From Streptantibioticus cattleyicolor NRRL 8057 = DSM 46488 (GTDB lineage Bacteria > Actinomycetota > Actinomycetes > Streptomycetales > Streptomycetaceae), in assembly GCF_000240165.1 (NCBI RefSeq), contig NC_017586.1, positions 5,407,228 through 5,471,227 of the forward strand: 64,000 nucleotides of DNA. The letters are read 5' to 3'. A program made the translations under genes and the position numbers. The notes beneath the pieces are model-generated. The model was not told the origin of the DNA. It searched no databases and was given only the letters and a program-made list of their open reading frames with translations. Positions 4,764 through 56,659 of the stretch are shown piece by piece (position 1 is the first letter of the stretch; each line of letters opens with the position of its first letter).

Positions 4764-6209
4764 TCACCCCTTGACCACGCCGAGCGGTACGAGGCGGGCC
4801 ACCTTGCGGCACAGTCCCGCCCCCTCGGCGGCGGCCACCACCTCGTCGACGTCCTTGTACGCCTGCGGTGCCTCCTCGGCGAGGCCGCGCCAGGAGGAGG
4901 CGCGGACGGCGACGCCGTGGGCCTCCAGTTCGCCGCGGAGCCGGTGGCCGTCGATCTCGCGGGCCGCGCGGTGGCGGCTGCGGACGCGTCCGGCGCCGTG
5001 GCAGGTGGAATGCCACGCGTCCCCGTCGGCCACGCCGGTCAGCACGTAGGAGGCGGTGCCCATGGTGCCGGGGATCAGCACCGGCTGGCCCACCGCGGAC
5101 AGGTCCGCCGGCAGGTCGGGGTGGCCAGGCGGCAGCGCCCGGGTGGCGCCCTTGCGGTGGACGCACAGCAGGCGCGGGGCGGCGTCCTCGCCCACCGGGT
5201 GCCTCTCCAGCTTGGCCATGTTGTGCGAGATGTCGTAGACCAGGTCGAGCCCGCAGCCGACGCTCTCGGCGAAGGCCCGCCGGGCCGCCTCGGCGAGCAA
5301 CTGCCGGTTGGCGCGGGCGTAGTTGGCGGCGGCTGCCATCGCGGCCAGATACGCCCGGCCGGGCCCGGAGTCCACCGGGGCGCAGGCGAGCTGGCGATCG
5401 GGCACCTCGATGCCGTAGCGCGGCATGACCGGGTCCATCGCCCGCACGTGATCGGTGCAGATCTGGTGGCCCAGGCCGCGCGAACCGCAGTGGATCATCA
5501 CGCAGACCTGCCCCGGCGCCAGCCCCATCGCCCGCGCCGCCGCCGCGTCGTGCACCACGTCGACCGCCTGCACCTCCAGGAAGTGGTTGCCCGAACCGAG
5601 GCTGCCGACCTGGCCCAGCCCCCGGTCGACGGCGCGTTCGCCCACCTGGCCGGGGTCGGCGCCGGGCAGCGTGCCGCCGTCCTCGCAACGTTCCAGGTCG
5701 CGGGGGACACCGTGGCCGCGTTCCACCGCGTAACGGGCGCCGTGCGCCAGCACCTCGGCCAGCTCGGCGCGGCTGACGTGCCACACCCCGCCGCGTCCGG
5801 CGCCGCGCGGCACCCGCCGCCCGAGGCCGTCCATCAGCCGCTCCAGCCGCCGCCCGAGCCCGTCCCGGTCACACCCGGCGGCCAGCAGCCGCACCCCGCA
5901 GGAGATGTCGAACCCCACCCCGCCGGGGGAGACCACACCGCCCTCGGCGATGTCGGTGGCGGCGACCCCGCCGATCGGGAACCCGTACCCCCAGTGCACG
6001 TCGGGCATGGCGTAGGAGGCGGTGACGATGCCGGGCAGCGTGGCCACGTCGGCCACCTGCTGGAGCGCCTGGTCGCCGGAGGCCTCCGGCAGCAGCCTGC
6101 GGGTGGCGAAGACCACCCCCGGCACCCGCATCGCGCCACGGCGCGGGATGCGGTAGCGGAACGGTGTCTCGGCGACCGCCTCGGCCACCATGTGTTCGGC
6201 CGGCTTCAC
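4764..6209 (-). CDS. rtcB: RtcB-type RNA-splicing ligase
   Basis: 481 residues. It carries the RtcB core: G-F-P-I-G-G-V-A-A, the metal-binding [18 protein letters not shown] near residues 75-107, [18 protein letters not shown], and the C-terminal guanylylation region with H-R-K-G-A-T-R-A and P-G-T-M-G-T-A-S-Y. RtcB joins RNA 2',3'-cyclic-phosphate or 3'-phosphate ends to 5'-OH ends using GTP and Mn2+, in tRNA or rRNA repair. The start is GTG with a good GGAGG-type site. The archease gene lies 25 bp upstream on the same strand, so the pair is an operon. Confidence 0.95.
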
Positions 6210-6234
6210 GGGACCTCGCCTCCCTCGCCCCCGG

Positions 6235-6684
6235 TCACACGTCCAGCGTCACCGCGCACCGCCACCCCGAGGGGCCGCCGCCGAACTCCAGCCGGTGCCA
6301 GGTGACCGCCTTGGGTACGGCGCCGGTGACGGCCAGCGAGGCGGCGTCGGCCATGGCCAGCCGGACCCGCAGGCCCTCCGGCAGCCAGGTCACCTCGGTG
6401 GCCACCGGCACCTCGCCGGCGCTGTCGAGCCGGTAGACCACCTCGTCGAGCAGGGCGACCAGCCGGTCCTCGGCGCCCGCGCCGCCCAGCTCGACCAGGT
6501 GCTCGCGCGACGGACGGGCCCCGGCCGGGTCGGCGAACGCCTCGACGGTGGCGGCCACCGCCTCGGCCAGGCAGCCTTCCCGGGTCGGGGCCCATGCCTC
6601 GATCCGCAGGTCGGCGGTGTGCGGCAGCGCGCGGTGGCCGCGCTCCGCGCGGTCCCGGCCGGACGTGGGGTCCGCCGCCGTCAT
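6235..6684 (-). CDS. Archease, RtcB activator
   Basis: 149 residues, close to the family norm of 140-150. The archease signature is present: [10 protein letters not shown] near the N-terminus with its conserved Asp, [10 protein letters not shown] in the middle, and A-V-T-W-H-R-L-E with the terminal T-L-D-V, where the end Asp is a metal ligand. Archease speeds RtcB guanylylation and allows several turnovers. An alternative GTG start lies one codon upstream at 6687. The gene immediately precedes rtcB, so both should be made together. Confidence 0.93.
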
Positions 6685-12109: not shown

Positions 12110-12148
12110 CCGGGCGCCCCGTGACCGCACCGGCCACGGGGCGCCCGG
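12110..12148 (+). terminator. Hairpin after the glycosidase-like gene
   Basis: A 14-bp perfect stem (12110-12123 with 12135-12148, arms CCGGGCGCCCCGTG and its complement) encloses an 11-nt loop. It starts 16 nt after the stop codon at 12094. Confidence 0.7.
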
Positions 12149-12150
12149 AC

Positions 12151-12164
12151 GTGACCTGGGTCAC
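12151..12164. promoter_or_regulatory. Palindrome GTGACC-TG-GGTCAC
   Basis: Perfect 6-2-6 inverted repeat about 110 bp upstream of the sigma/anti-sigma fusion gene, immediately after the preceding terminator. It may be an operator. No known regulator motif is assigned. Confidence 0.35.
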
Positions 12165-12270
12165 CATCGCCCCGCTCCGGCTAAACCGGTGCTTACCCTT
12201 GCGTATTGAACGAATGCCGCAAGGGGGGCGAGCCGACCGGGACGAGTCGGCGAGCACAGGAGTTGAGCGC

Positions 12271-13815
12271 ATGACCGACCACGCACCGGCCCGTCCGGAG
12301 CGCCACCAGCGCTACCTGCGGGTGCACCAGGACCAGCACCCGGGACTCGTCGCGTACGCACGCACGCTCACCGGTAGCCCCTGGGTCGCCCCCGACGTGG
12401 TCGCCGAGGCCCACTTCCGCCTCTGGCAGGACCCGCCGGCCGACGAGGCCGCCCAGGAGCTGCCCGCCCTCCTCACCCGCCAGGTGCACGACCTCGCGGT
12501 CGCCGCCGACCCCGAGCCCGACCGCCGCTGGTCCTACTCCGACCTGCTGGTCGCCGTCCTCCACCGGCTGCCCCGGCGCTGGGTGACCGCGCTGTGGCTG
12601 ACCCAGGTCGAGCAGGCGTCCACCGCGGTGGTCGCCCGACGGCTGCGGACCGGGCGCGGCGCCGCCACCGCGCTGGCCGGCCGCGCCTTCGACGGCGCCC
12701 GCACCGCCTTCCTGATGGCCCAGCCCGGCACCCCCTGGGACCGCTCCTGCGCCCCGCACTGGGAGCGCATACCGGAGTGCGTGACCGCCGGTGACCAGGC
12801 GTCCGCGCCGGCCCGGGGGACCCTGCTGCACACCGAGGGGTGCGCCGACTGCCGGTCCCGGCTGGCCGCGGTGGGCCGGGCCGCCGAACGCTTCCCGGCG
12901 CTGCTCGGCCCGGCGCTGCTGGCGCTGCTGCTCGGGGGTACGGCGGAGTGGCTCACCCCGCTGATCGGCGCCGTCGAGGCCGACCGCCGCCTCGGTCCGG
13001 TGGGCCGGGTGCTCGCCCGGGCGCCGCGCCGGATGCGCAGCACCCCGGTGGCCGCGGGCACGGCCGGGGTCGCCTGTCTGGCCGGGGTGGGGCTCGGCCT
13101 CGGGCTGACGCTGCCCGGTTCGGCCGGCGGCACCCAGCACGTCTCCGACCCGAACGCCGGGTCGCACGCCGGGGTGCACGCCCCCGCCGACCCCTCGCCC
13201 TCCGCCCGCCCGGCGGCCCCGCAGGACGCGCGGACCTCCGGCCCGCTCCCGTCCGGCTCCGGCCACACGTCGCCGTCGCCCTCGCACGTCACGGTCCCGG
13301 CGGCGCCCGCCCGCCCCGGTGCCGGCACGCCGGGCGGAACGCACACCCCGGCGCCCGCCCCGGACCCGGCCACCCACGCCCCGGCGGCGACGCCGAAGGG
13401 AACCCCGGCCCCGAGCACGCCGACGCCGCGTACGCAGCCGTCGACCCCTCAGCCGTCGAGCCCCGCTCCGGCCACCTCCGCGCCCGCGAGCCCGGCTCCG
13501 TCGAGCCCTCAGCCGTCGAGCCCGGCTCCGGCCACCTCCGCGCCCGCGAGCCCGGCCCCGTCGAGCCCCCAGCCGTCGAGCCCGGCTCCGTCGAGCCCCG
13601 CCCCCGCCACCCCCACGCCCTCCGGCGCCGCCACCTCGCCGTCCCCGGCGGACAGCGGCTCGACCACCACGGCACCGGCCACCACCCCGGCGTCCGGCAG
13701 CCCTTCACAACCGGCCGCCTCCGGCTCGCCGTCGTCCCCGGGCGGCAGCACGGCACCGGCCGGATCCTCCACCCCATCCACCCCGGCGACGGGTACGGAA
13801 CGACCGGCCTCTTGA
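12271..13815 (+). CDS. Membrane-tethered sigma-factor/anti-sigma-like fusion with Pro/Ser repeat tail
   Basis: 514 residues from ATG 12271 (AGGAG 9 nt upstream). Residues 20-150 resemble ECF sigma regions 2 and 4 (L-V-A-Y-A-R-T-L ... A-E-A-H-F-R-L-W-Q, then W-V-T-A-L-W-L-T), but the segments are weak. Residues 187-194 give H-x3-C-x2-C, the zinc signature of ZAS anti-sigma factors, preceded by further Cys and His at 160-170. A membrane helix spans about 260-283. The rest is a Pro/Ser/Thr/Ala tail outside the cell with a 20-residue repeat. Such a chain could be a self-inhibited sigma factor or a tethered regulator. Its operon partner is not evident. Confidence 0.75.
   Translation: MTDHAPARPERHQRYLRVHQDQHPGLVAYARTLTGSPWVAPDVVAEAHFRLWQDPPADEAAQELPALLTRQVHDLAVAADPEPDRRWSYSDLLVAVLHRLPRRWVTALWLTQVEQASTAVVARRLRTGRGAATALAGRAFDGARTAFLMAQPGTPWDRSCAPHWERIPECVTAGDQASAPARGTLLHTEGCADCRSRLAAVGRAAERFPALLGPALLALLLGGTAEWLTPLIGAVEADRRLGPVGRVLARAPRRMRSTPVAAGTAGVACLAGVGLGLGLTLPGSAGGTQHVSDPNAGSHAGVHAPADPSPSARPAAPQDARTSGPLPSGSGHTSPSPSHVTVPAAPARPGAGTPGGTHTPAPAPDPATHAPAATPKGTPAPSTPTPRTQPSTPQPSSPAPATSAPASPAPSSPQPSSPAPATSAPASPAPSSPQPSSPAPSSPAPATPTPSGAATSPSPADSGSTTTAPATTPASGSPSQPAASGSPSSPGGSTAPAGSSTPSTPATGTERPAS
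13441..13590 (+). repeat. 60-bp tandem repeat coding Pro/Ser-rich tail
   Basis: Two full 60-bp units (13441-13500 and 13501-13560) and half a third (13561-13590) differ at only a few bases. Each encodes 20 residues of the S-S-P-Q-P-S-S-P-A-P-A-T-S-A-P type in the extracellular tail of the sigma/anti-sigma-like protein. The copy number is likely to vary between strains. Confidence 0.85.
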
Positions 13816-13924
13816 CGGATACCAACAAGTAGGTACTGTTTCGTCCACTCATCGTCCGGTTGACAACCAGCGCCCACAGTTCGGCGCAGACAGCAAGACG
13901 GGGTCTCACGCAAGGACGGACAAC

Positions 13925-14386
13925 GTGGAACCGACGACACCCCCATCCCCCCGGCCCGCCCGATGGCCCGGCGCGGTGTGCCCACCCGGCGCACCCGGCT
14001 TCGTCCAGTCGGCCAAGGCGTGGCTGTTCGACCTGGCCCCTGCCCGGTGGCGGTACGAAGAGGCGCTCCACACCCATCCCGCCGAACTCGCCACCATGAT
14101 CCGGCTCCACCTCGAAGCCGAGATCACCGCCGTGCAGACCCGGCTGCGCACCCTGCGCGGCGGGGCCCCGGCGGACGGTGGCGGCACCCCCGCGGTCACC
14201 CCGGCGGTGCCCGAGGCGTGCGCGGTCTACGCCCGCGAGCACGCCTGGGCCTGCGCCATGCTCGACCAGGTCAGGCTGATCGAGGACGCCCTGATCACCG
14301 CGTGCCGGGCCGCCGCGGGACGGCGCCGGGCCGGCGGCGCGCCGCGCCGCGCCGCCGTACCCGCCCCGCGTCCGGCCACCGGCTGA
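13925..14386 (+). CDS. Conserved actinomycete protein of unknown function
   Basis: 153 residues from GTG 13925, which has AAGGA 10 nt upstream. After a Pro-rich start, the core (about residues 22-125) is helical, with W-L-F-D-L-A-P-A-R-W-R-Y-E and H-L-E-A-E-I-T-A-V-Q-T-R-L-R. The tail is basic and Ala/Arg-rich. It has no signal peptide or membrane segment, so it is cytoplasmic. It lies 109 bp behind the membrane-tethered regulator in the same direction. No function can be stated. Confidence 0.65.
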   Translation: MEPTTPPSPRPARWPGAVCPPGAPGFVQSAKAWLFDLAPARWRYEEALHTHPAELATMIRLHLEAEITAVQTRLRTLRGGAPADGGGTPAVTPAVPEACAVYAREHAWACAMLDQVRLIEDALITACRAAAGRRRAGGAPRRAAVPAPRPATG

Positions 14387-14400
14387 GCCGGGCCGCGCCG

Positions 14401-14955
14401 TCAGCCCCCGGCCGGACGGCCGGCCGGGGCGCGCGCGTCGGTGCGCAGCGGCGTGATCTGGTGGATGTCGTAACGCTCCCGCAGTTCGGCGATGGCCGCC
14501 GGGTCGGGCGGGCCGCCGCCGTCGAGGATCTCCAGCAGTTCCTCGAAGTACCGCTCGTGGGCCGGGGGCGGCGCCGACTGGAAGAGCATCCTGGCCGGCT
14601 CGTCGGTGGGGTTGGCGAACGCGTGCGGGCACCCCGGCGGCACGTGGGCCACCGATCCGGGGCCGGCCCGCACCACCGTCGAGCCGTCCGGGCCCTGCCA
14701 CGACCGCCAGCCGTGCGGGGTGCGCTCCCGGGGCTCGAAGGCGAGCAGGTCCAGCTCCCCTTCCAGGATGTAGAAGACCTCCTCGCTGTGCGCGTGGGCG
14801 TGGGCGCCCACGTCGAACCCGGGCGGCACCACCACCTCGAAGACCGAACCGACCGCGCTGTGTTCCCCGGTGACTTTGAAGGTCACCTCGTGGGCGGGGG
14901 TCACGAAGCGCCGGCCGGCCCCCGGGGGCAGCACCAGACCGTTGAGCACGCTCAT
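14401..14955 (-). CDS. Cupin monooxygenase-like protein of the rppA operon (MomA-like)
   Basis: 184 residues with one cupin barrel. The first cupin motif is G-A-H-A-H-A-H-S-E-E-V-F-Y-I-L-E-G-E-L (about residues 50-68), giving His and Glu metal ligands, and the second is H-V-P-P-G-C-P-H-A-F-A-N (about 110-121). It is the last gene of the rppA-P450-cupin operon, 16 bp after the P450 stop. In S. coelicolor the equivalent position (SCO1208) holds a quinone-forming monooxygenase that oxidises tetrahydroxynaphthalene to flaviolin. I infer the same role from motif and context. Confidence 0.85.
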   Translation of the reverse strand: MSVLNGLVLPPGAGRRFVTPAHEVTFKVTGEHSAVGSVFEVVVPPGFDVGAHAHAHSEEVFYILEGELDLLAFEPRERTPHGWRSWQGPDGSTVVRAGPGSVAHVPPGCPHAFANPTDEPARMLFQSAPPPAHERYFEELLEILDGGGPPDPAAIAELRERYDIHQITPLRTDARAPAGRPAGG

Positions 14956-14971
14956 CGCCGTCCTCCTTCCG

Positions 14972-16210
14972 TCACCAGGTCACCGGGAGCGCGTGGGGGC
15001 CGCGGATCAGCTCACCGCGCCGCCACTCGATCTCCTCCGGGGCGACCGCCAGCCGCAACCGCGGGAAGCGGTCCAGCAGCCCGCCCAGCATGACCTCGCA
15101 CTCCATCTTCGCCAGCGACGCGCCCACGCAGTAGTGCGGCCCGCTGCCGAACGACACGTGCGGGTTGAACGTCCGGTCGAAGTCCATCCGGTGCGGGCAG
15201 GAGAACTTCTCCGGGTCCCGGTTGGCCGCCAGGTACGACACGTAGATGGGGTCGCCGCGACGCACCGTCACGTCGCCGAGGCGCACGTCCTCCACCGCGA
15301 CCCGGGCCATGCCGACGGCGTTGCGGTGCGGGACGAAACGCAGCAGCTCGTCCACGGCCTGCGGCAGCAGCTCGCGCTCCGCGCGCAGTCTGGCCAGGTG
15401 GTCGGGGTGGGTGAGCAGCAGATACACCATGTTGCTGCTGTTGAACCGCACCGAGTTGGTGCCGCTGATCTGCATCAGCACGGCGAACGCGACCAGTTCC
15501 TGGTGGGTCAGGCGGCCGTCGCGCTCCGCCGCCGCCATGTGACTGAGCACGTCGTCGCGGGGTTCGGCGAGGCGTTGTGCCGCCAGGTCGGCGAAGTAGG
15601 CGCCGATGTCGTGCTTGGCCTGCTCGCTGGCCTCCCGGCCGGCCTCGGCGGATATCACCAGCCGGGCCCACTTGGCCATCTTCGGCCAGTCCTCCTCCGG
15701 AACGCCCATCAGCTCGCTCATCCCGCCCAGTGCGAACGGGGTGTTGAGGTGCTCCATCACATCGGCCGGCGGCCCGGCCCGTTCCATGGTGTCCAGCAGG
15801 CGGCCGGCGATCTCCTCGGCGCGTGGCCGCAGTTTCTCGATCCGCCGGTGGGTGAACATCGCCGCCACCGTCTTGCGCATCCTGGTGTGTTCCGGCGGGT
15901 CGGCGAAGCCCACCGCGTCGTCCAGCGGGATGAAGTGCGGTGCCAGCCGGGTCACATCCCGTCCGACCAGCGCCTCCCGGCTGAACCGCGGATCGGAGGT
16001 GACCAGCTTGACGTCGTCGTACCGGGCGGCGACCCAGGCCGGTTCGGTACCGTGCGGCAGCTTGACGAGGGCCGGCGAGTCCTGCTGGAGCAGCTCCTCC
16101 ATGAACGGGTCGAAGTCCATCGCCTCGACCTCGTCCACCGACCAGAAACGCACCGGGGGAGCGTCGTCCCGCCCGGTTTCCCGGCTCTCCTCGTGGGGTC
16201 GGGTGGTCAT
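14972..16210 (-). CDS. Cytochrome P450, CYP158-like (flaviolin coupling)
   Basis: 412 residues. The heme loop is F-G-S-G-P-H-Y-C-V-G with Cys361; the K-helix E-L-L-R is at 288-291. The I-helix segment reads I-S-G-T-N-S (248-253), so the usual acidic residue and Thr are replaced by Asn and Ser. CYP158 enzymes of S. coelicolor also deviate at the conserved Thr and use the substrate hydroxyls for oxygen activation. The expected reaction is oxidative C-C coupling of flaviolin to dimers and trimers, the pigment step. Its ATG shares a base with the rppA stop (TGATG at 16208-16212), so the genes are coupled. GGAGG precedes the start. Confidence 0.9.
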   Translation of the reverse strand: MTTRPHEESRETGRDDAPPVRFWSVDEVEAMDFDPFMEELLQQDSPALVKLPHGTEPAWVAARYDDVKLVTSDPRFSREALVGRDVTRLAPHFIPLDDAVGFADPPEHTRMRKTVAAMFTHRRIEKLRPRAEEIAGRLLDTMERAGPPADVMEHLNTPFALGGMSELMGVPEEDWPKMAKWARLVISAEAGREASEQAKHDIGAYFADLAAQRLAEPRDDVLSHMAAAERDGRLTHQELVAFAVLMQISGTNSVRFNSSNMVYLLLTHPDHLARLRAERELLPQAVDELLRFVPHRNAVGMARVAVEDVRLGDVTVRRGDPIYVSYLAANRDPEKFSCPHRMDFDRTFNPHVSFGSGPHYCVGASLAKMECEVMLGGLLDRFPRLRLAVAPEEIEWRRGELIRGPHALPVTW

Positions 16211-17307
16211 CAGGCGTACCTCCTGTCGGAACGGGGCTGCTCGGTACGGACCCCGCCGTCCCCGTCGACCCAGGTGCCCAGGGCCATCTCGGCGGTGATC
16301 CCGGGGCCGAAGCCGGCGAGCAGGCCGCGGCCCGACTCGCCCACCGAGTCCTCCTCGAACATGCGGCCGAGCGCGTCCAGCACCACGGCGCTGGCGATGT
16401 TGCCGTACTCGGTGAGCGTGGCCCGGCTGAAGCGGAACGCCTCCGCGGGCACGTCGAGGAACCGGCACAGGTCGTCCAGGATCCGCGGGCCGCCCGCGTG
16501 CACGATGTAGAAGTCCAGCGCGGAGGCGTCCCAGTGGTGTTGGGCCGCCACCGCCTGGAGCGCCGGGCTGAGGGGTTCCATCGTCCCCGGCACCCGCTTG
16601 TCGAGCTGGAAGTGGAAACCGGTGGGGCGCACCGCGTAGGAGATCCACCCCTCGGTGTGCGGGATCAGGTACGACCCGTTGCGTTCCAGCCGCACCCCGG
16701 TGCCGCCCCGGCCGCGGACCACGGCGGCGGCGATGCCGTCCCCGAAGAGCCCGTTGGACAGCAGCGAGCCCACGCCGAGGTCGGTGGGCTGGTAGCACAG
16801 CGAGCAGAACTCGCAGGCGACGATGAGTGCGTTGGCGTCCGGATAGGCGACGCAGAAGTCATGGGCCCGGTTGATGGCGGCGCCGCCGGCCGCGCAGCCG
16901 AGCTGGGCGATGGGCATCTGCCGGGTCTCGTAACGGAACCCCATCTCGTTGATGAGCCAGGCCGTCAGCGACGGCATCATGAAGCCGGTGCACGAGACGT
17001 AGACGATCAGGTCGATGTCGGCCGGCTCGGTCCCGGCGTTGTCCAGCGCACGGCGCACCACCTGCGGTACGCGGGCCTTGGACTCCCTCTCGTAGATCTC
17101 GCTTCGTACGTCGAAGCCGGGGTGTCTGAGCACGTCGTCCAACGGCTGCACCAGGTGACGTTCCTTGACCCCGGTGTGTTCGATCAGGCGTAGCACCAGT
17201 CCGAGTTGTGAGTGGTGGGCGTGGAGGTCCCGGGCCAGTTCGAGGGTGTCTTCCATCGTGATGACGTGGTCCGGAACGGCGACTGCGGGTTTGCACAGGA
17301 CCGCCAT
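16210..17307 (-). CDS. rppA: RppA type III polyketide synthase (1,3,6,8-tetrahydroxynaphthalene synthase)
   Basis: 365 residues, typical for the family. The catalytic triad is visible as Cys138 (Q-L-G-C-A-A-G-G), His270 (Y-I-V-H-A-G-G-P) and Asn303 (E-Y-G-N-I-A-S), with the same numbering as characterised RppA proteins. Five malonyl-CoA are joined, cyclised and aromatised to tetrahydroxynaphthalene, which oxidises to flaviolin and pigment. Its ATG has GGAGGAG at 8 nt. It leads an operon with the P450 and cupin genes. A complete acetyl-CoA carboxylase operon reads away from the same 0.5 kb intergenic region, which suggests supply of its substrate. Confidence 0.96.
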   Translation of the reverse strand: MAVLCKPAVAVPDHVITMEDTLELARDLHAHHSQLGLVLRLIEHTGVKERHLVQPLDDVLRHPGFDVRSEIYERESKARVPQVVRRALDNAGTEPADIDLIVYVSCTGFMMPSLTAWLINEMGFRYETRQMPIAQLGCAAGGAAINRAHDFCVAYPDANALIVACEFCSLCYQPTDLGVGSLLSNGLFGDGIAAAVVRGRGGTGVRLERNGSYLIPHTEGWISYAVRPTGFHFQLDKRVPGTMEPLSPALQAVAAQHHWDASALDFYIVHAGGPRILDDLCRFLDVPAEAFRFSRATLTEYGNIASAVVLDALGRMFEEDSVGESGRGLLAGFGPGITAEMALGTWVDGDGGVRTEQPRSDRRYA

Positions 17308-17801
17308 GGATCCGCTCCTCCTGAACGGTTCGATTCACACGGCTCGACCCGGTCGGCGGCGGTGACCATCTGCGTCGGTGGGGCGACGGCGCGCGTCGGC
17401 GGCGCGGGAAGCGCGGAACGCGGATACGTGACTGGACAACGCGCCGACGCGGGCCCTGGTCGGGTGGCCGACGCGGTTGTCGCTCGGTCCACGCTACGTC
17501 AGATGGCCTACCCCCGCATGCCGGACTCCGGGGTGCCCGTCGGGCCGGGGAGTGGTAGCCGTGTCACGTCGTCCGCTGTGCCGTGTCGTGCCGTGTCGTG
17601 TCGCGTCGGCGCGGGTGCCTGCTCCGGTTGCGGGGTGGTGGGGGCCGGAGGAACATCGGACAGGTGCGGTCCCGGCGACCGCCGTCCCGAACCGGCCCGG
17701 CCGTCCGTCCACCGGACGCCGGAAGGCCGGTCGCAGCCACGGTCGCTGCCGCCTCGGAAGCTCCCGATCCCGGTGAACCGACGGGGACCGCTGGAGGACA
17801 G
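17308..17801. other. Divergent promoter region between rppA and accDA
   Basis: 494 bp with no credible gene. It must carry the promoters of both the rppA operon (left) and the acc operon (right). A short tandem of CGTGTCGTGC-like units is at about 17580-17610. I see no clear -35/-10 pair or palindromic operator. Confidence 0.5.
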
Positions 17802-19592
17802 ATGCCCGACAGACCCCCGACAGCCGCCCTCTCCGTGACCAGCCCGGCCCCCGCGACCGGGGTGGAGTGGGCGCGCTGTCACAACTGCCAGGCGATCGTC
17901 TACGGCCGCTCGTTCGCACGGGCCGCCAAGACCTGCCCGGAATGCGGCAGACACGCGCAGCTGACCGCCGCCGAACGCATCGCGCAACTGCTCGACGACG
18001 GCACCGGCGAACCGCTGGAACCCGGTCGCACGCTTCAGGATCCGCTCGGCTTCACCGACTCCCGGCCCTACCCCGAGCGACTGGCCGAGGCCCGCGCGCA
18101 CACCGGCGCCGACTCGGCCGTGCTCGCCGCCACCGGGCTGATCCAGGGCAGCCCGGTGGTGATCGCCGCGATGGACTTCCGGTTCATGGGCGGCAGCATG
18201 GGCAGCGCCGAGGGGGAGGCGGTGACCACCGCCGCCGAGGCCGCGCTGGCCCGCCGCATCCCGCTGGTCATCGCCACCGCGTCGGGCGGCGCGCGGATGC
18301 AGGAGGGCGTCTACTCGCTGTTCCAGATGGCCAAGACCGCGCAGGCGCTGGCCGCGCTGGACGAGGCCGGGGTGCTCACCGTGAGCATCGTCTCCGACCC
18401 CACCTACGGCGGTGTCGCCGCCTCCTTCGCCACCCTCACCGACGTCATCATCGCCGAACCCGGCGCCCGGATGGGGTTCGCCGGACCGCGGGTGATCGAG
18501 CAGACCATCCGCGAACGCCTCCCGGACGGCTTCCAGACCGCCGAGTTCCTCCTCGCCCACGGCCTGGTCGACGCCGTGCTGCCGCGTTCCCGCCACCGCG
18601 ACGCGCTGGCCACCCTGGTGCGCGCCGCCACCCGGCGGGACGCCCCGGCCGGCGGCCCGGCCGACCACGGCGCCATCGTGCGCGACCCGGCGCTGCTGCC
18701 CGTCCGCCCGGCCTGGGACGCGGTACGGACCGCCCGGGACACCGCCCGCCCGACCACCTTGGACCATCTCGGCCGCCTGCTGGACGAGTTCGTGGAGCTG
18801 CACGGCGACCGGGCGAGCGGCGACTGCCGTGCGGTGGTCGCCGGACTCGGGCTCCTCGACGGCCGCCCGCTGGCCGTCATCGGCCACCAGAAGGGCCACA
18901 CCACCAAGGAACTGGCCGACCACGAATTCGGTCTGGCCACCCCGGACGGCTACCGCAAGGCGGCCCGGGTGATGCGGCTCGCCGCCAAACTCGGCGTCCC
19001 GGTGCTCACCCTCATCGACACCCCCGGCGCCTACCCCGGTGTGGACGCCGAGCGCAACGGCCAGGCGGTCGCCATCGCGGAGAACCTGCGGCTGATGTCC
19101 CAGCTGCCGGTCCCGCTGGTGGCCGTCGTGCTGGGCGAGGGCGGCAGCGGCGGCGCCCTCGCGCTGGCTGTCGCCGACCGGGTGCTGGTCGGCGAGAACG
19201 CCGTCTACTCGGTGATCAGCCCGGAGGGTTGCGCCGCCATCCTGTGGCACGACCGCGCCGCCGCCCCGGAAGCCGCCGAGGCGCTCGGGCTGGACGCCCG
19301 CTCGCTGCTCGGCCACGGCCTGGTGGACGGGGTCGTCCCGGAACCCGAAGGGGGCGCCCAGCGCGACCCGGACCAGGCCGCGGAACGGCTGCGCGGGGCG
19401 GTACGGGCCGCCTTCGGCGAGCTGGCCGGCGTTCCGGCGCCGGAGCTGGTCGCGGCCAGGCGCCGCCGGTTCCGCCGGACCGGGGTGGCCCCGCCCGGCG
19501 GGTCGGAACGCCGTCCCGGCCGTTCCCCGGACCTCACCTCCCCACCCCCGGACCCACCCTTCGATCCGCCCGAGGACAAGGACCTGGCATGA
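17802..19592 (+). CDS. accDA: Acetyl-CoA carboxylase carboxyltransferase, fused beta and alpha subunits
   Basis: 596 residues from ATG 17802 (GGAGG at 8 nt). The N-terminal half is AccD-like: a four-Cys zinc ribbon (C26, C29, C45, C48), [13 protein letters not shown] and S-G-G-A-R-M-Q-E-G. The second half (from about residue 320) is AccA-like, with [11 protein letters not shown]-type start, G-A-Y-P-G-V-D-A-E and G-E-G-G-S-G-G-A. It transfers CO2 from carboxybiotin to acetyl-CoA to make malonyl-CoA. A Pro-rich tail ends in ATGA overlap with accB. Primary Streptomyces ACC uses a different AccA/AccB/AccE set, and fused accDA genes usually accompany aromatic polyketide clusters. Confidence 0.92.
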
Positions 19593-20206
19593 CCACCAAT
19601 CACTACGCCAAGGAGTTCGAACCCTTGAAGACCGGCCAGGACGCCATCCCGGAGCTGACCCCGGGAGCGGCGGCCGAACGGCTCGCGCACACCGCGACCC
19701 GGCTGGCGCACGCCCTCGACGCCCCGCTGCGCCGCATCCGCGTCCAGCAGGGCGAGACCAGCGTCGAGCTGGAATGGCCCGAATACGGCGCCCCCGAGGC
19801 CGAGGCGGTGACGGCCCGAGCCGAAGCGGCGGCCACCGCGCCGGCCCATCTCACCGGCGCCGCCGCGGAGGCCACCGGCCCGGCCGGCGATCCGCCCGGC
19901 GCGTGTGTCACCGCGCCCATGGTCGGCACCTTCTACCACGCCCCCGAACCGGGTGCCGCCCCCTTCGTCCAGGTCGGCGACCTGGTGGAGAAGGGCCAGC
20001 AGATCGGCATCGTGGAGGCGATGAAGCTGATGAACCCCATCGAGTCCGACACCCGCGGCCGGGTCACCGCCCTGCTGGTGGAGGACGGCCGCCCGGTCGA
20101 GTACGACCAGCCGCTGGTGGCCCTCGAACCGGTGGCCGACGACGAGGCCGACGCCTCCGACCCGGCCCCCGGCCCGTCCGCCCTGTCCGCCCGTGAACCC
20201 GTGTGA
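19589..20206 (+). CDS. accB: Biotin carboxyl carrier protein
   Basis: 205 residues. The biotinyl domain is at the C-terminal half (about residues 105-180): [13 protein letters not shown], then the biotin site E-A-M-K-L-M-N with Lys146. An Ala/Pro-rich linker (about 68-104) joins it to an N-terminal helical part, the normal BCCP layout, and a 25-residue acidic tail is extra. It carries CO2 between the biotin carboxylase and the carboxyltransferase encoded on either side. Its ATG overlaps the accDA stop. Confidence 0.94.
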
Positions 20207-20210
20207 GCGC

Positions 20211-21590
20211 ATGTTCTCCAACGTCCTGATAGCGAACCGGGGCGAGATCGCCGTCCGGGTGGCCCGGGCCTGCCGCGAACTCGGCATCCGCAGCATCGCC
20301 GTGCACTCCACCGCGGACCAGGGCTCCGAGGTGCTGCGGCTCGCCGACGAGACCGTGCAGATCGGCCCGGCCGCCGCCCGCCGCAGCTACCTCAACCCGG
20401 CCGCCGTGATCTCCGCCGCCCTGCAGACCGGTGCCGAGGCGATCCACCCGGGGTACGGCTTCCTCTCCGAGGACCCCGACTTCGCGGAGATCTGCGAGGC
20501 GTACGGCATCACCTTCATCGGCCCGCCCGCGCCGCTCATGCGCGACCTGGGCGACAAGGCCCGGGCCCGCGCGCTGATGGCCCGCGCCGGGCTGCCCACG
20601 CTGCCCGGCAGCGACGGCCCGGTGCAGGACGAGGCCGCCGTCGAGGCGGTCGCCGCCGAGGTCGGCTTCCCGCTGATCGTCAAGGCGGTGGCGGGCGGCG
20701 GCGGACGCGGCATGGCCGTGGTGCACGACGCCGCCGAACTGCTGCCGGTCTACCGCAAGACCCGGGCCGGCGCCCAACTGCTCTTCGGCGACGGCCGGGT
20801 CTACCTGGAGCGCTACCTGCCCACCGCACGCCACGTCGAGGTGCAGGTCCTCGCCGACGCGCATGGCAACGTTGTCCACCTCGGCGAGCGGGACTGCTCC
20901 GTCCAGCGCCGCCACCAGAAGCTGCTGGAGGAGACCCCGGCACCCAACCTGCCGGCCGAAGTGACCGGGCGGATGGGCGAGATGGCCGTGCGGGGCGTGC
21001 GGGCCCTGGGCTACACCGGGGTGGGCACCTTCGAGTTCCTGGTGGACGAGGCGGGCCGGTTCACCTTCATGGAGATCAACGGCCGCATCCAGGTGGAGCA
21101 CCCGGTGACCGAGCAGGTGACCGGGATCGACCTGGTCCAGGAGCAGATCAAGGCCGCCGCCGGGGTGCCGCTCGCCATCCGCCAGGAGGACGTGCGGCGC
21201 ACCGGCGTGGCCATGGAGTGCCGGGTCAACACCGAGGACCCGGCCCGCGACTTCACCCCGACCGCGGGCACGCTCACCGACTTCCGGGTGCCCGGCGGCC
21301 CGTTCACCCGGGTCGACTCGCACGCCTACACCGGCTGGCGGGTCCCGGCCGACTACGACTCGCTGCTGGCCAAGGTGGTGGTGTGGGCGCCGGACCGGGC
21401 GGGCGCGGTGGCCCGGATGGACCGGGCCCTGGCCGAACTGGTGGTTTCCGGCCCCGGGGTGCACACCACGGCGGACTTCCTGCGCGCCGTCCTCGCCGAG
21501 GAGTCGTTCCGGGCCGGCCGCCACACCACGTCCATCGTGGCGTCGATGGCGGCGGTCGGCGCCGACGGTCACCGCCGCCCCGGCGGTTAG
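20211..21590 (+). CDS. accC: Biotin carboxylase subunit of acetyl-CoA carboxylase
   Basis: 459 residues from ATG 20211; a GTG at 20193 would add six. The family start M-F-S-N-V-L-I-A-N-R-G-E-I-A fits the ATG. The ATP-grasp parts are present: the Gly-rich A-G-G-G-G-R-G-M loop, H-P-G-Y-G-F-L-S-E, E-R-D-C-S-V-Q-R-R-H-Q-K and N-G-R-I-Q-V-E-H-P-V-T-E; in the last, the usual N-P-R or N-T-R is N-G-R. It carboxylates biotin on AccB with ATP and bicarbonate. The C-terminal BCCP found in the primary actinobacterial alpha subunit is absent, consistent with a separate accB. It is four bases downstream of accB, last in the operon. Confidence 0.94.
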   Translation: MFSNVLIANRGEIAVRVARACRELGIRSIAVHSTADQGSEVLRLADETVQIGPAAARRSYLNPAAVISAALQTGAEAIHPGYGFLSEDPDFAEICEAYGITFIGPPAPLMRDLGDKARARALMARAGLPTLPGSDGPVQDEAAVEAVAAEVGFPLIVKAVAGGGGRGMAVVHDAAELLPVYRKTRAGAQLLFGDGRVYLERYLPTARHVEVQVLADAHGNVVHLGERDCSVQRRHQKLLEETPAPNLPAEVTGRMGEMAVRGVRALGYTGVGTFEFLVDEAGRFTFMEINGRIQVEHPVTEQVTGIDLVQEQIKAAAGVPLAIRQEDVRRTGVAMECRVNTEDPARDFTPTAGTLTDFRVPGGPFTRVDSHAYTGWRVPADYDSLLAKVVVWAPDRAGAVARMDRALAELVVSGPGVHTTADFLRAVLAEESFRAGRHTTSIVASMAAVGADGHRRPGG

Positions 21591-21597
21591 CGCCGCG

Positions 21598-22452
21598 TCA
21601 GTCGCGGGCGCGCACCTCGATGTGGCCGTCGCGCACCCGGGTCTCGTACACCGGCTGCGGGGAGGAGGCCGGGCCGTGCACCACGGTGCCGTCGGCGAGC
21701 GAGAAGGTGCTGCCGTGCCAGGGGCAGGTGACGCAGCCGCCGGAGATCTTCCCCTGGTCGAGCGGGCCGCCCAGGTGGCTGCAGGTGTTGGCGAGGGCGT
21801 GGATCGCACCGCCGGAGCGGTGCAGCAGCACCACCGCGTCCCCGGCCCGCACCGCGCGCTGCGCTCCCTCGCCGAGTTCCGACTCGGCCAGCACCGGCGT
21901 CCACTCGCCGGGACGCTGCTCGAACGCGGTGCGGTTGGCGTTGACCACGTCCACGAAGGTCAGGTGGCCGCCGAGGTAGCCGCCGGCCATCAGCGCCCCG
22001 AGGCCGGCCAGCCCCAGCACCCGGCCCCGGCCGCGCCGCCCGGCGCACCGCGCGGCCAGCGACGCCGTGTAGAGCACCAGCGCCGCCGAGTTGGCCGCCG
22101 CGTGCGCCACCCCGACCCGGCGGGCCCCGCCCTTGGTGTCCGACCAGTCGTTCCACCCGGCCGCGGCGGTCGGCAGCGCGGAGAGGACCCCGGTGACCAC
22201 CAGCAGGTCGGCGGCGCGGCGGGAGCGGCGCCCGCCGGCCAGGTCCAGCAGCGCGGACATCGACCACGCCCCGATCGGCACGTCGGTGAGCACCGGGTGC
22301 AGCGGGTGGCCGAGGTTGGTGCCGCTGAGCAGGTCACGCAGCGGCTGGCGGCGGGCGAGGAAGCCGCGTACCGCCCGGGAGAGCGGTTCGGCTGCCGCGT
22401 CGAGCGCCGTCATGTGCTCCAGACGCTTGGCGAGTTGGTGAAGGACGGCCAT
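21598..22452 (-). CDS. DUF2231 membrane domain fused to Rieske 2Fe-2S domain
   Basis: 284 residues. Residues 1-165 form a DUF2231 domain with four likely membrane helices (G-H-P-L-H-P-V-L-T-D-V-P-I-G-A-W is the signature). Residues 180-284 form a Rieske domain with C-S-H-L-G-G and C-P-W-H-G-S-T-F, giving two Cys and two His ligands for a 2Fe-2S cluster. It is probably a membrane-bound electron carrier or redox sensor; no redox partner is adjacent. It converges with accC (8 bp between stops). The ATG has GGGAG upstream. Confidence 0.88.
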   Translation of the reverse strand: MAVLHQLAKRLEHMTALDAAAEPLSRAVRGFLARRQPLRDLLSGTNLGHPLHPVLTDVPIGAWSMSALLDLAGGRRSRRAADLLVVTGVLSALPTAAAGWNDWSDTKGGARRVGVAHAAANSAALVLYTASLAARCAGRRGRGRVLGLAGLGALMAGGYLGGHLTFVDVVNANRTAFEQRPGEWTPVLAESELGEGAQRAVRAGDAVVLLHRSGGAIHALANTCSHLGGPLDQGKISGGCVTCPWHGSTFSLADGTVVHGPASSPQPVYETRVRDGHIEVRARD

Positions 22453-56218: not shown

Positions 56219-56659
56219 TCAGAACGCGAACACGTAGCGGCTCGCGTCCTGTGCCCGGCACGCGTTGGGGTACACGTGGCTGTAGGAGACCCGCTGGCCG
56301 TGCCAGACGCCCTCGGCGGTCAGGACGACCGGGTTCCACAGGTCCGGGCAGATCCGGCCGGAGTGGGTGTCGACCAGCGCCGCGAAGTCGCCCTGGGCGG
56401 CGTTGAGTTCGGCGCACGCGTCGGCCGGTGCCGGGTGGTCGCCGCCCGGGGTGGGCGTACAGCGCAGCGAGACCGCCCGCTGCACGGCGGCGTTGGTGGT
56501 CGTCTGGCCCTTGCCGATGGTCAGTACGAGCTCGGTGGGCGCGTACAGACTCGTCGGACGCGCGGGCGCGGCGTGGGCCGTGGCCGTGCCGGCCAGCGTC
56601 CCGGTGAGGCAGACCGCCGCAGCCGCCATCACGCCCAACGCCCTCTTGGTGTACCGCAT
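56219..56659 (-). CDS. Subtilisin inhibitor-like protease inhibitor (SSI) with Asp at P1
   Basis: 146 residues from ATG 56659 (GAGGAG at 8 nt). The signal peptide is cleaved after A-H-A at residue 30. The mature part has the four SSI cysteines (67, 82, 104, 138-region) and ends in Y-V-F-A-F, like the family's V-F-A-F. The reactive loop reads C104-P-D-L-W-N-P. By comparison with SSI (C-P-M-V-Y-D-P) the P1 residue is Asp106 and P1' Leu. Known SSI proteins have Met, Lys or Arg at P1, so the target may be an acidic-residue-specific serine protease. It ends in a strong hairpin. Confidence 0.93.
   Translation of the reverse strand: MRYTKRALGVMAAAAVCLTGTLAGTATAHAAPARPTSLYAPTELVLTIGKGQTTTNAAVQRAVSLRCTPTPGGDHPAPADACAELNAAQGDFAALVDTHSGRICPDLWNPVVLTAEGVWHGQRVSYSHVYPNACRAQDASRYVFAF

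Follow-up and report, generated by a model that had tools for sequence, protein, structure and literature searches.

A predicted rppA pigment operon divergent from a complete acetyl-CoA carboxylase gene set in Streptantibioticus cattleyicolor and its relatives

The divergent gene block and its predicted enzymes

A candidate naphthalene pigment operon built around the type III polyketide synthase (PKS) gene rppA lies back to back with genes for a complete multi-subunit acetyl-CoA carboxylase (ACC) in Streptantibioticus cattleyicolor NRRL 8057 = DSM 46488. Both gene sets reside in the window, by which we mean the whole 64-kb stretch of DNA analyzed (G000:C2:5407228-5471227) within the 8.1-Mb genome, the one representative of its genus among the genomes compared, and they read in opposite directions from a common intergenic region:

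14401-14955, minus strand: cupin gene (Pfam Cupin_2, 1.5e-14; motifs HxH...E...G and PxGxxHxxxN)
14972-16210, minus strand: gene for a CYP158A2-like cytochrome P450, a biflaviolin synthase candidate (PDB match and heme-Cys motif)
16210-17307, minus strand: rppA, type III PKS, predicted 1,3,6,8-tetrahydroxynaphthalene (THN) synthase (PDB match and C138/H270/N303)
17308-17801, no strand: shared divergent intergenic region, 494 bp between rppA and accDA
17802-19592, plus strand: accDA, fused carboxyltransferase β and α (TIGR00515, NF041504)
19589-20206, plus strand: accB, biotin carboxyl carrier protein (BCCP) (TIGR00531; biotin motif)
20211-21590, plus strand: accC, biotin carboxylase (NF006367; alternative upstream GTG start at 20193)

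The original prediction, made from the DNA letters and their open reading frames (ORFs), described rppA, the P450 gene, and the cupin gene as one coupled operon. The gene calls and spacings bear this out, with one base common to the rppA stop and the P450 start and a gap of 16 nt between the P450 and cupin genes. The acc genes do read from the same region of about 0.5 kb, as had been described; the accDA and accB frames have 4 nt in common, and the gap between accB and accC is 4 nt.

Among solved structures, RppA is best matched by 1u0m (618.9 bits, 2.7e-185), which we take to be the THN synthase SCO1206, with the next match at 137 bits. The catalytic residues claimed beforehand, Cys138, His270, and Asn303, were all found, as were Cys106, Cys171, and Tyr224 (numbering from the accessible part of PMC8773403). 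The rppA product is predicted to make THN from five malonyl-CoA; the genome contains one further RppA-like match, at only 31% identity. For the P450, the nearest solved structure is the biflaviolin synthase CYP158A2 (448.5 bits, 2.2e-133) and the heme-Cys motif reads FGSGPHYCVG, in agreement with the CYP158-like assignment made earlier. The cupin, encoded by the third gene after rppA and the P450 gene, has weak PDB matches and carries both metal motifs, and it is a candidate for the quinone-forming oxygenase found at the position of Stmo, MomA, and SCO1208. Its copies are 73-77% identical in five related blocks and 65% identical in the Embleya records NBC_00888 and NBC_00896.

The carboxylase is of the multi-subunit, Escherichia coli type, with carboxyltransferase β, carboxyltransferase α, BCCP, and biotin carboxylase all encoded together with their key motifs, and the claim that it is complete therefore stands. 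AccDA scores above the cut-offs of TIGR00515 (329 bits; cut-off 317) and NF041504 (AccA_sub; 326 bits; cut-off 300), AccB above that of TIGR00531 (BCCP; 128.6 bits; cut-off 115), and AccC above that of NF006367 (AccC PRK08591; 618.5 bits; cut-off 597). The cut-offs of TIGR00513 and NF004344 (AccA) and of TIGR00514 (AccC; 597 vs 626.5) were missed by 3-5%. Zn-ribbon cysteines C26/29/45/48 are present in AccDA, the best solved relatives of whose halves are AccA and AccD chains; the biotin motif AMKL stands at residue 144 of AccB, and AccC contains GGGGRGM and EINGRIQVEHPVTE. The genome has seven Carboxyl_trans loci, among which accDA scores lowest for the Carboxyl_trans model (139 bits), and accDA is also the only row of the genome in the strong AccA range (PF03255, 1.7e-102; threshold E ≤ 1.4e-81), with up to five candidates scored per genome in the PF03255 and rppA family searches. 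On these grounds the ACC is distinct from the primary one, as had been proposed, and it is additional to the usual carboxylases of the genome; we infer acetyl-CoA to be its substrate. Convergent with accC and ending 7 nt from it, a gene with DUF2231 and Rieske [2Fe-2S] domains (21598-22452) lies outside the conserved block.

Recurrence and origins of the linkage

The block, in which cupin, P450, and rppA are divergent from accDA, accB, and accC, recurs in Streptomyces humicola RB6PN25 (G006; L078/L138), and the same divergent order is found in a Streptomycetaceae metagenome-assembled genome (MAG; G021; L079/L142) whose contig ends inside accDA. Three Streptantibioticus-group genomes, G012 (L140), G025 (L141), and G034 (L139), whose loci are also denoted by L097, L124, and L125, have the cupin-P450 pair divergent from accDA-accB-accC, with rppA missing from the block. 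Named genomes yielded 408 accDA relatives; among the best 80 of these, the fetched flank contained rppA in three (L138, L142, L207) and a P450-cupin pair without rppA in three (L139-L141). Comparing acc-rppA neighborhoods across genomes had been suggested as the check on the original prediction, with a lack of co-occurrence elsewhere counting against it; the adjacency does recur.

The flanks examined around the other copies of the block differ from those in the window. With frames of at least 100 aa and E ≤ 1e-25, 48 kb of S. humicola matched the 64-kb window only inside the block, and 20 kb from each of the three Streptantibioticus-group copies matched it only at about 14440-21554; on the MAG contig, which lay outside the flank test, the block genes alone matched. 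Plain conserved synteny was rejected because the flanks read have nothing beyond the block in common with the window. The block genes are under purifying selection, with ratios of nonsynonymous to synonymous substitution rates (dN/dS) of 0.03-0.44 in the pairs compared; in the pair formed by the window and S. humicola, accB has the highest value (0.44), and accC and rppA lie at about 0.2. Recent transfer of the block is not favored, as its dS between the window and relatives (0.48-0.72) overlaps the range of rtcB (0.53-0.79), the sole control gene. A second candidate control gene in the window, presumably argJ-like, proved unusable, its relatives looking like paralogues.

Two elements of the divergent intergenic region, TACGNCAG...GCATG (from 17495) and CTCCGGTTGC (17622-17631), are kept in all six blocks, rppA-less ones included, while the rest of the region has mostly drifted (MAFFT alignment). 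At 40 other rppA loci, where as much as 500 bp before the gene was scanned, CTCCGGTTGC occurs exactly in none and TACGNCAG in two. Some conservation is to be expected, because the six blocks are related by descent; the elements are possible promoter or operator sites. Scanning the intergenic region for the sigma-70 consensus gave no match.

A second arrangement was found in Embleya, where rppA and, immediately downstream of it, accDA-accB-accC share one strand in two of four genomes, E. hyalina NBRC 13850 (G030; L207) and G004 (L259). Neither a P450 nor a cupin was matched near these genes in the 20 kb read. Of the remaining two genomes, G019 carries two copies of rppA, with acc absent from the 20 kb read, and rppA has no match in G037. 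Two plasmid-collection records, Embleya NBC_00888 (L235) and NBC_00896 (L298), display the order rppA-cupin-accDA-accB-accC, again on one strand; the NBC_00888 ORFs overlap at rppA/cupin, cupin/accDA, and accDA/accB. Since a separate ACC lies beside a type II ketosynthase α (KSα) gene in G004, G030, and NBC_00896 (L108, L109, L234), each PKS in these three seems to own an ACC.

Phylogenetic placement of the carboxylases drew on an accDA tree (109 of 114 rows, all 114 being matches over 450 aa) and a more careful tree of concatenated AccDA and AccC from 41 chosen rows. In the latter, the ACCs of the window, S. humicola, the MAG, and the Streptantibioticus group form one clade (100/100), and the Embleya rppA-linked ACCs fall among ten others, all but one of them type II-linked. 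An approximately unbiased (AU) test run without NBC_00896 rejected a single clade both for the nine linked rows (p 1.7e-6) and for the six rppA-linked rows (p 1.3e-7), which points to at least two independent origins of the rppA-ACC linkage. A quick rppA tree (67 rows out of 225 rppA genomes) likewise parts the two linked groups, the window side lacking starred support. NBC_00896 clusters with the other Embleya rows in a quick tree that used one frame, with the AccA half out of frame, a placement that is indicative only. On at least two occasions, rppA loci are likely to have taken up ACC sets of the sort often found in type II clusters.

The frequency of the linkage was assessed in 394 family genomes, an even sample of a larger group, in which rppA was counted at E ≤ 1e-90 and the strong AccA range comprised 61 rows in 58 genomes. 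The two genes adjoin in 5 of the 31 genomes having both, namely, the window genome, G006, G021, G004, and G030, where uniform placement would put 0.08 of 31 within 10 kb; taken as two origins, this gives P of about 0.003, a figure that ignores the clustering of secondary-metabolite genes. Its presence in further genera, and in two different arrangements, puts the adjacency beyond chance.

That such ACCs are often part of type II polyketide clusters, also asserted at the outset, is confirmed by KSα and KSβ genes within about 9 kb of 50 of the 58 other acc loci of the family; two of the remaining eight are rppA-linked, three are P450-cupin-linked, and three have a different setting. No type II KSα was found within the 64-kb window or in its genome, where the best matches to a type II KSα query reach 38-43% identity vs 61-86% in genomes with type II genes, and RppA is therefore the only aromatic-PKS partner recognized. 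More distant accDA-accB-accC sets (50-52% AccDA identity) occur in three Streptomycetaceae (L082, L084, L085) in one shared operon-like setting, with no type II ketosynthase in the stretch read.

Known systems and competing explanations

Statements on published systems in this section refer to the accessible parts of the papers cited. RppA converts five malonyl-CoA to THN, the stmo cupin takes THN to flaviolin, and P450s oligomerize flaviolin (PMC8773403); SCO1206-SCO1208 are neighboring genes (PMC10879549). Both SCO1206-SCO1207-SCO1208 (rppA-CYP158A2-cupin) and rppA-rppB-stmo of Streptomyces agree with the window in their three kinds of enzyme and in gene order (PMC10879549, PMC8773403). Their descriptions, as far as accessible, mention no ACC, and the word carboxylase does not occur in PMC8773403, whereas here a complete one reads from the same intergenic region. 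ACC genes are present in type II PKS clusters (PMC7296137), and perHIJ of persiamycin encodes the same kind of ACC for malonyl-CoA, composed of carboxyl transferase, biotin carboxylase, and BCCP (PMC7296137). The partner of perHIJ, however, is a type II minimal PKS, while that of the window ACC is a type III PKS in a genome where no type II KSα was found. Closest among type III systems is the kendomycin B type I/III hybrid cluster, which likewise combines a type III PKS with an acyl-CoA carboxylase gene (PMC8708025). That gene encodes a propionyl-CoA carboxylase β beside methylmalonyl-CoA mutase genes, presumably serving the type I PKS, and the accessible cluster description shows no AccDA/B/C set (PMC8708025). 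The original prediction knew of no type III cluster described with such an ACC; in the accessible open-licence full-text literature, we too found none described with rppA or any other type III cluster. Malonyl-CoA supply has been linked to output in related settings: in engineered E. coli, flaviolin output follows malonyl-CoA, and RppA is used to report malonyl-CoA (PMC12303837); anthracyclinone titer rose about twofold when ACC was overexpressed (PMC11101304).

We consider it probable that the window holds an rppA-P450-cupin operon for a naphthalene pigment (flaviolin or HPQ-melanin) with its own dedicated source of malonyl-CoA. In such a pathway, AccC would carboxylate biotin on AccB and AccDA would hand the carboxyl group to acetyl-CoA; RppA would condense five of the resulting malonyl-CoA to THN, which the cupin would oxidize to flaviolin for coupling by the P450. 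One 0.5-kb control region would switch on supply and use together, presumably at times when the primary ACC, tied to growth, falls short. This supply reading rests on genome context, that is, on the genes and motifs, the recurrence of the block, a linkage with more than one origin, block genes under purifying selection, and a search of the genome that found no type II KSα, all of which were observed; from this context we infer the enzyme activities, co-expression, and dependence of the pigment on the ACC. More tentatively, a separately regulated malonyl-CoA supply may have been captured repeatedly by type III PKS pigment operons, allowing pigment to form with the primary ACC shut down, and perhaps with preferential malonyl-CoA transfer to RppA. 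Pathway-linked ACCs have been described for type II clusters (PMC7296137); at least two captures by a type III pigment operon suggest that malonyl-CoA supply can limit this pathway in natural settings and come under selection. Natural RppA-ACC pairs could be useful in view of the role of RppA as a malonyl-CoA reporter (PMC12303837), and they would offer a genetic test of a separate precursor pool for secondary metabolism.

A number of observations weigh against a dedicated supply. Co-occurrence of rppA and AccA at the genome level did not hold up: rppA is present in 225 of 394 family genomes and in 31 of 58 strong-AccA genomes, which is no enrichment (Fisher p 0.57), and this measure was dropped as support. 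Linkage is rare, being seen in 5 of 225 rppA genomes, and in 26 of the 31 genomes with both genes the two lie on different contigs or far apart, although contig ends could hide links. At the class level, rppA was found in 41 of 394 genomes, 20 of them outside the family, and none of these 20 loci has acc near rppA (six stretches ended at contig ends). The rppA-less block of the three Streptantibioticus-group genomes demonstrates that rppA can leave the block. Those genomes and S. humicola carry a type II KSα elsewhere (61-80%) and no second strong AccA row, so the ACC there may serve more than one PKS and might act for a type II PKS in trans. Within Embleya, NBC_00896 counts in favor as a second record, but its AccD and AccA halves (L298, 13614-15243) are in different reading frames, whether through separate genes, a frameshift, or an error in sequencing, and this copy may therefore not be intact. 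The rarity of the linkage, the lack of co-occurrence at the genome level, the type II PKS genes in some carriers, and the rppA-less block speak against obligate pairing of rppA and ACC in a simple form.

The frequency of type II neighbors also raises the alternative that the ACC is left over from a cluster for a type II aromatic PKS, happened to stay beside rppA, and now supplies either the common malonyl-CoA pool of the cell or, in trans, a type II PKS. The 50 of 58 family loci with KSα and KSβ nearby, the placement of the window ACC among type II-linked sequences in trees, and the KSα genes elsewhere in S. humicola and the Streptantibioticus group all fit a relic. We nevertheless regard it as unlikely, since the linkage arose on two separate occasions, the block, whose divergence overlaps that of rtcB, keeps constant edges between flanks that differ where examined, ORFs of both sets overlap in Embleya NBC_00888, Embleya retains a second ACC beside its type II KSα, and no KSα was found in the window genome. 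Alternatively, the ACC could belong to the CYP158-cupin pair or another product of it, with rppA being optional. The three Streptantibioticus-group genomes fit this pattern, as no rppA remnant was detected in their block intergenic regions and their single rppA sits elsewhere, in two of the genomes next to another P450 (45-46%); this rppA is phylogenetically different and lies about 29-32 kb from a type II KSα in G025 and G034. Still, all three carry an rppA in trans, no other PKS was recognized in the block, and Embleya G004 and G030 link rppA to acc in 20-kb stretches where neither P450 nor cupin was matched, all of which makes a role tied to the CYP158-cupin pair improbable. We give very little credence to the idea that the ACC is a spare enzyme conferring self-resistance to an ACC inhibitor, a role that has been proposed in connection with andrimid-type antibiotics. 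Spare carboxylase genes do occur in inhibitor clusters, but no inhibitor biosynthesis genes were recognized among the neighbors scanned, and THN and flaviolin are, to our knowledge, not known as ACC inhibitors. Andrimid-like inhibitors of fatty-acid synthesis are the subject of the accessible part of PMC13151354.

Other features of the window

The roughly 2.3 kb beside the cupin gene (12121-14400) contain long ORFs that gave no Pfam match when tested. Farther upstream, the control gene rtcB, encoding an RNA ligase, has an archease gene just upstream of it (4764-6684); the two proteins are known to work together. A gene of the Streptomyces subtilisin inhibitor (SSI) family is located at 56219-56659.

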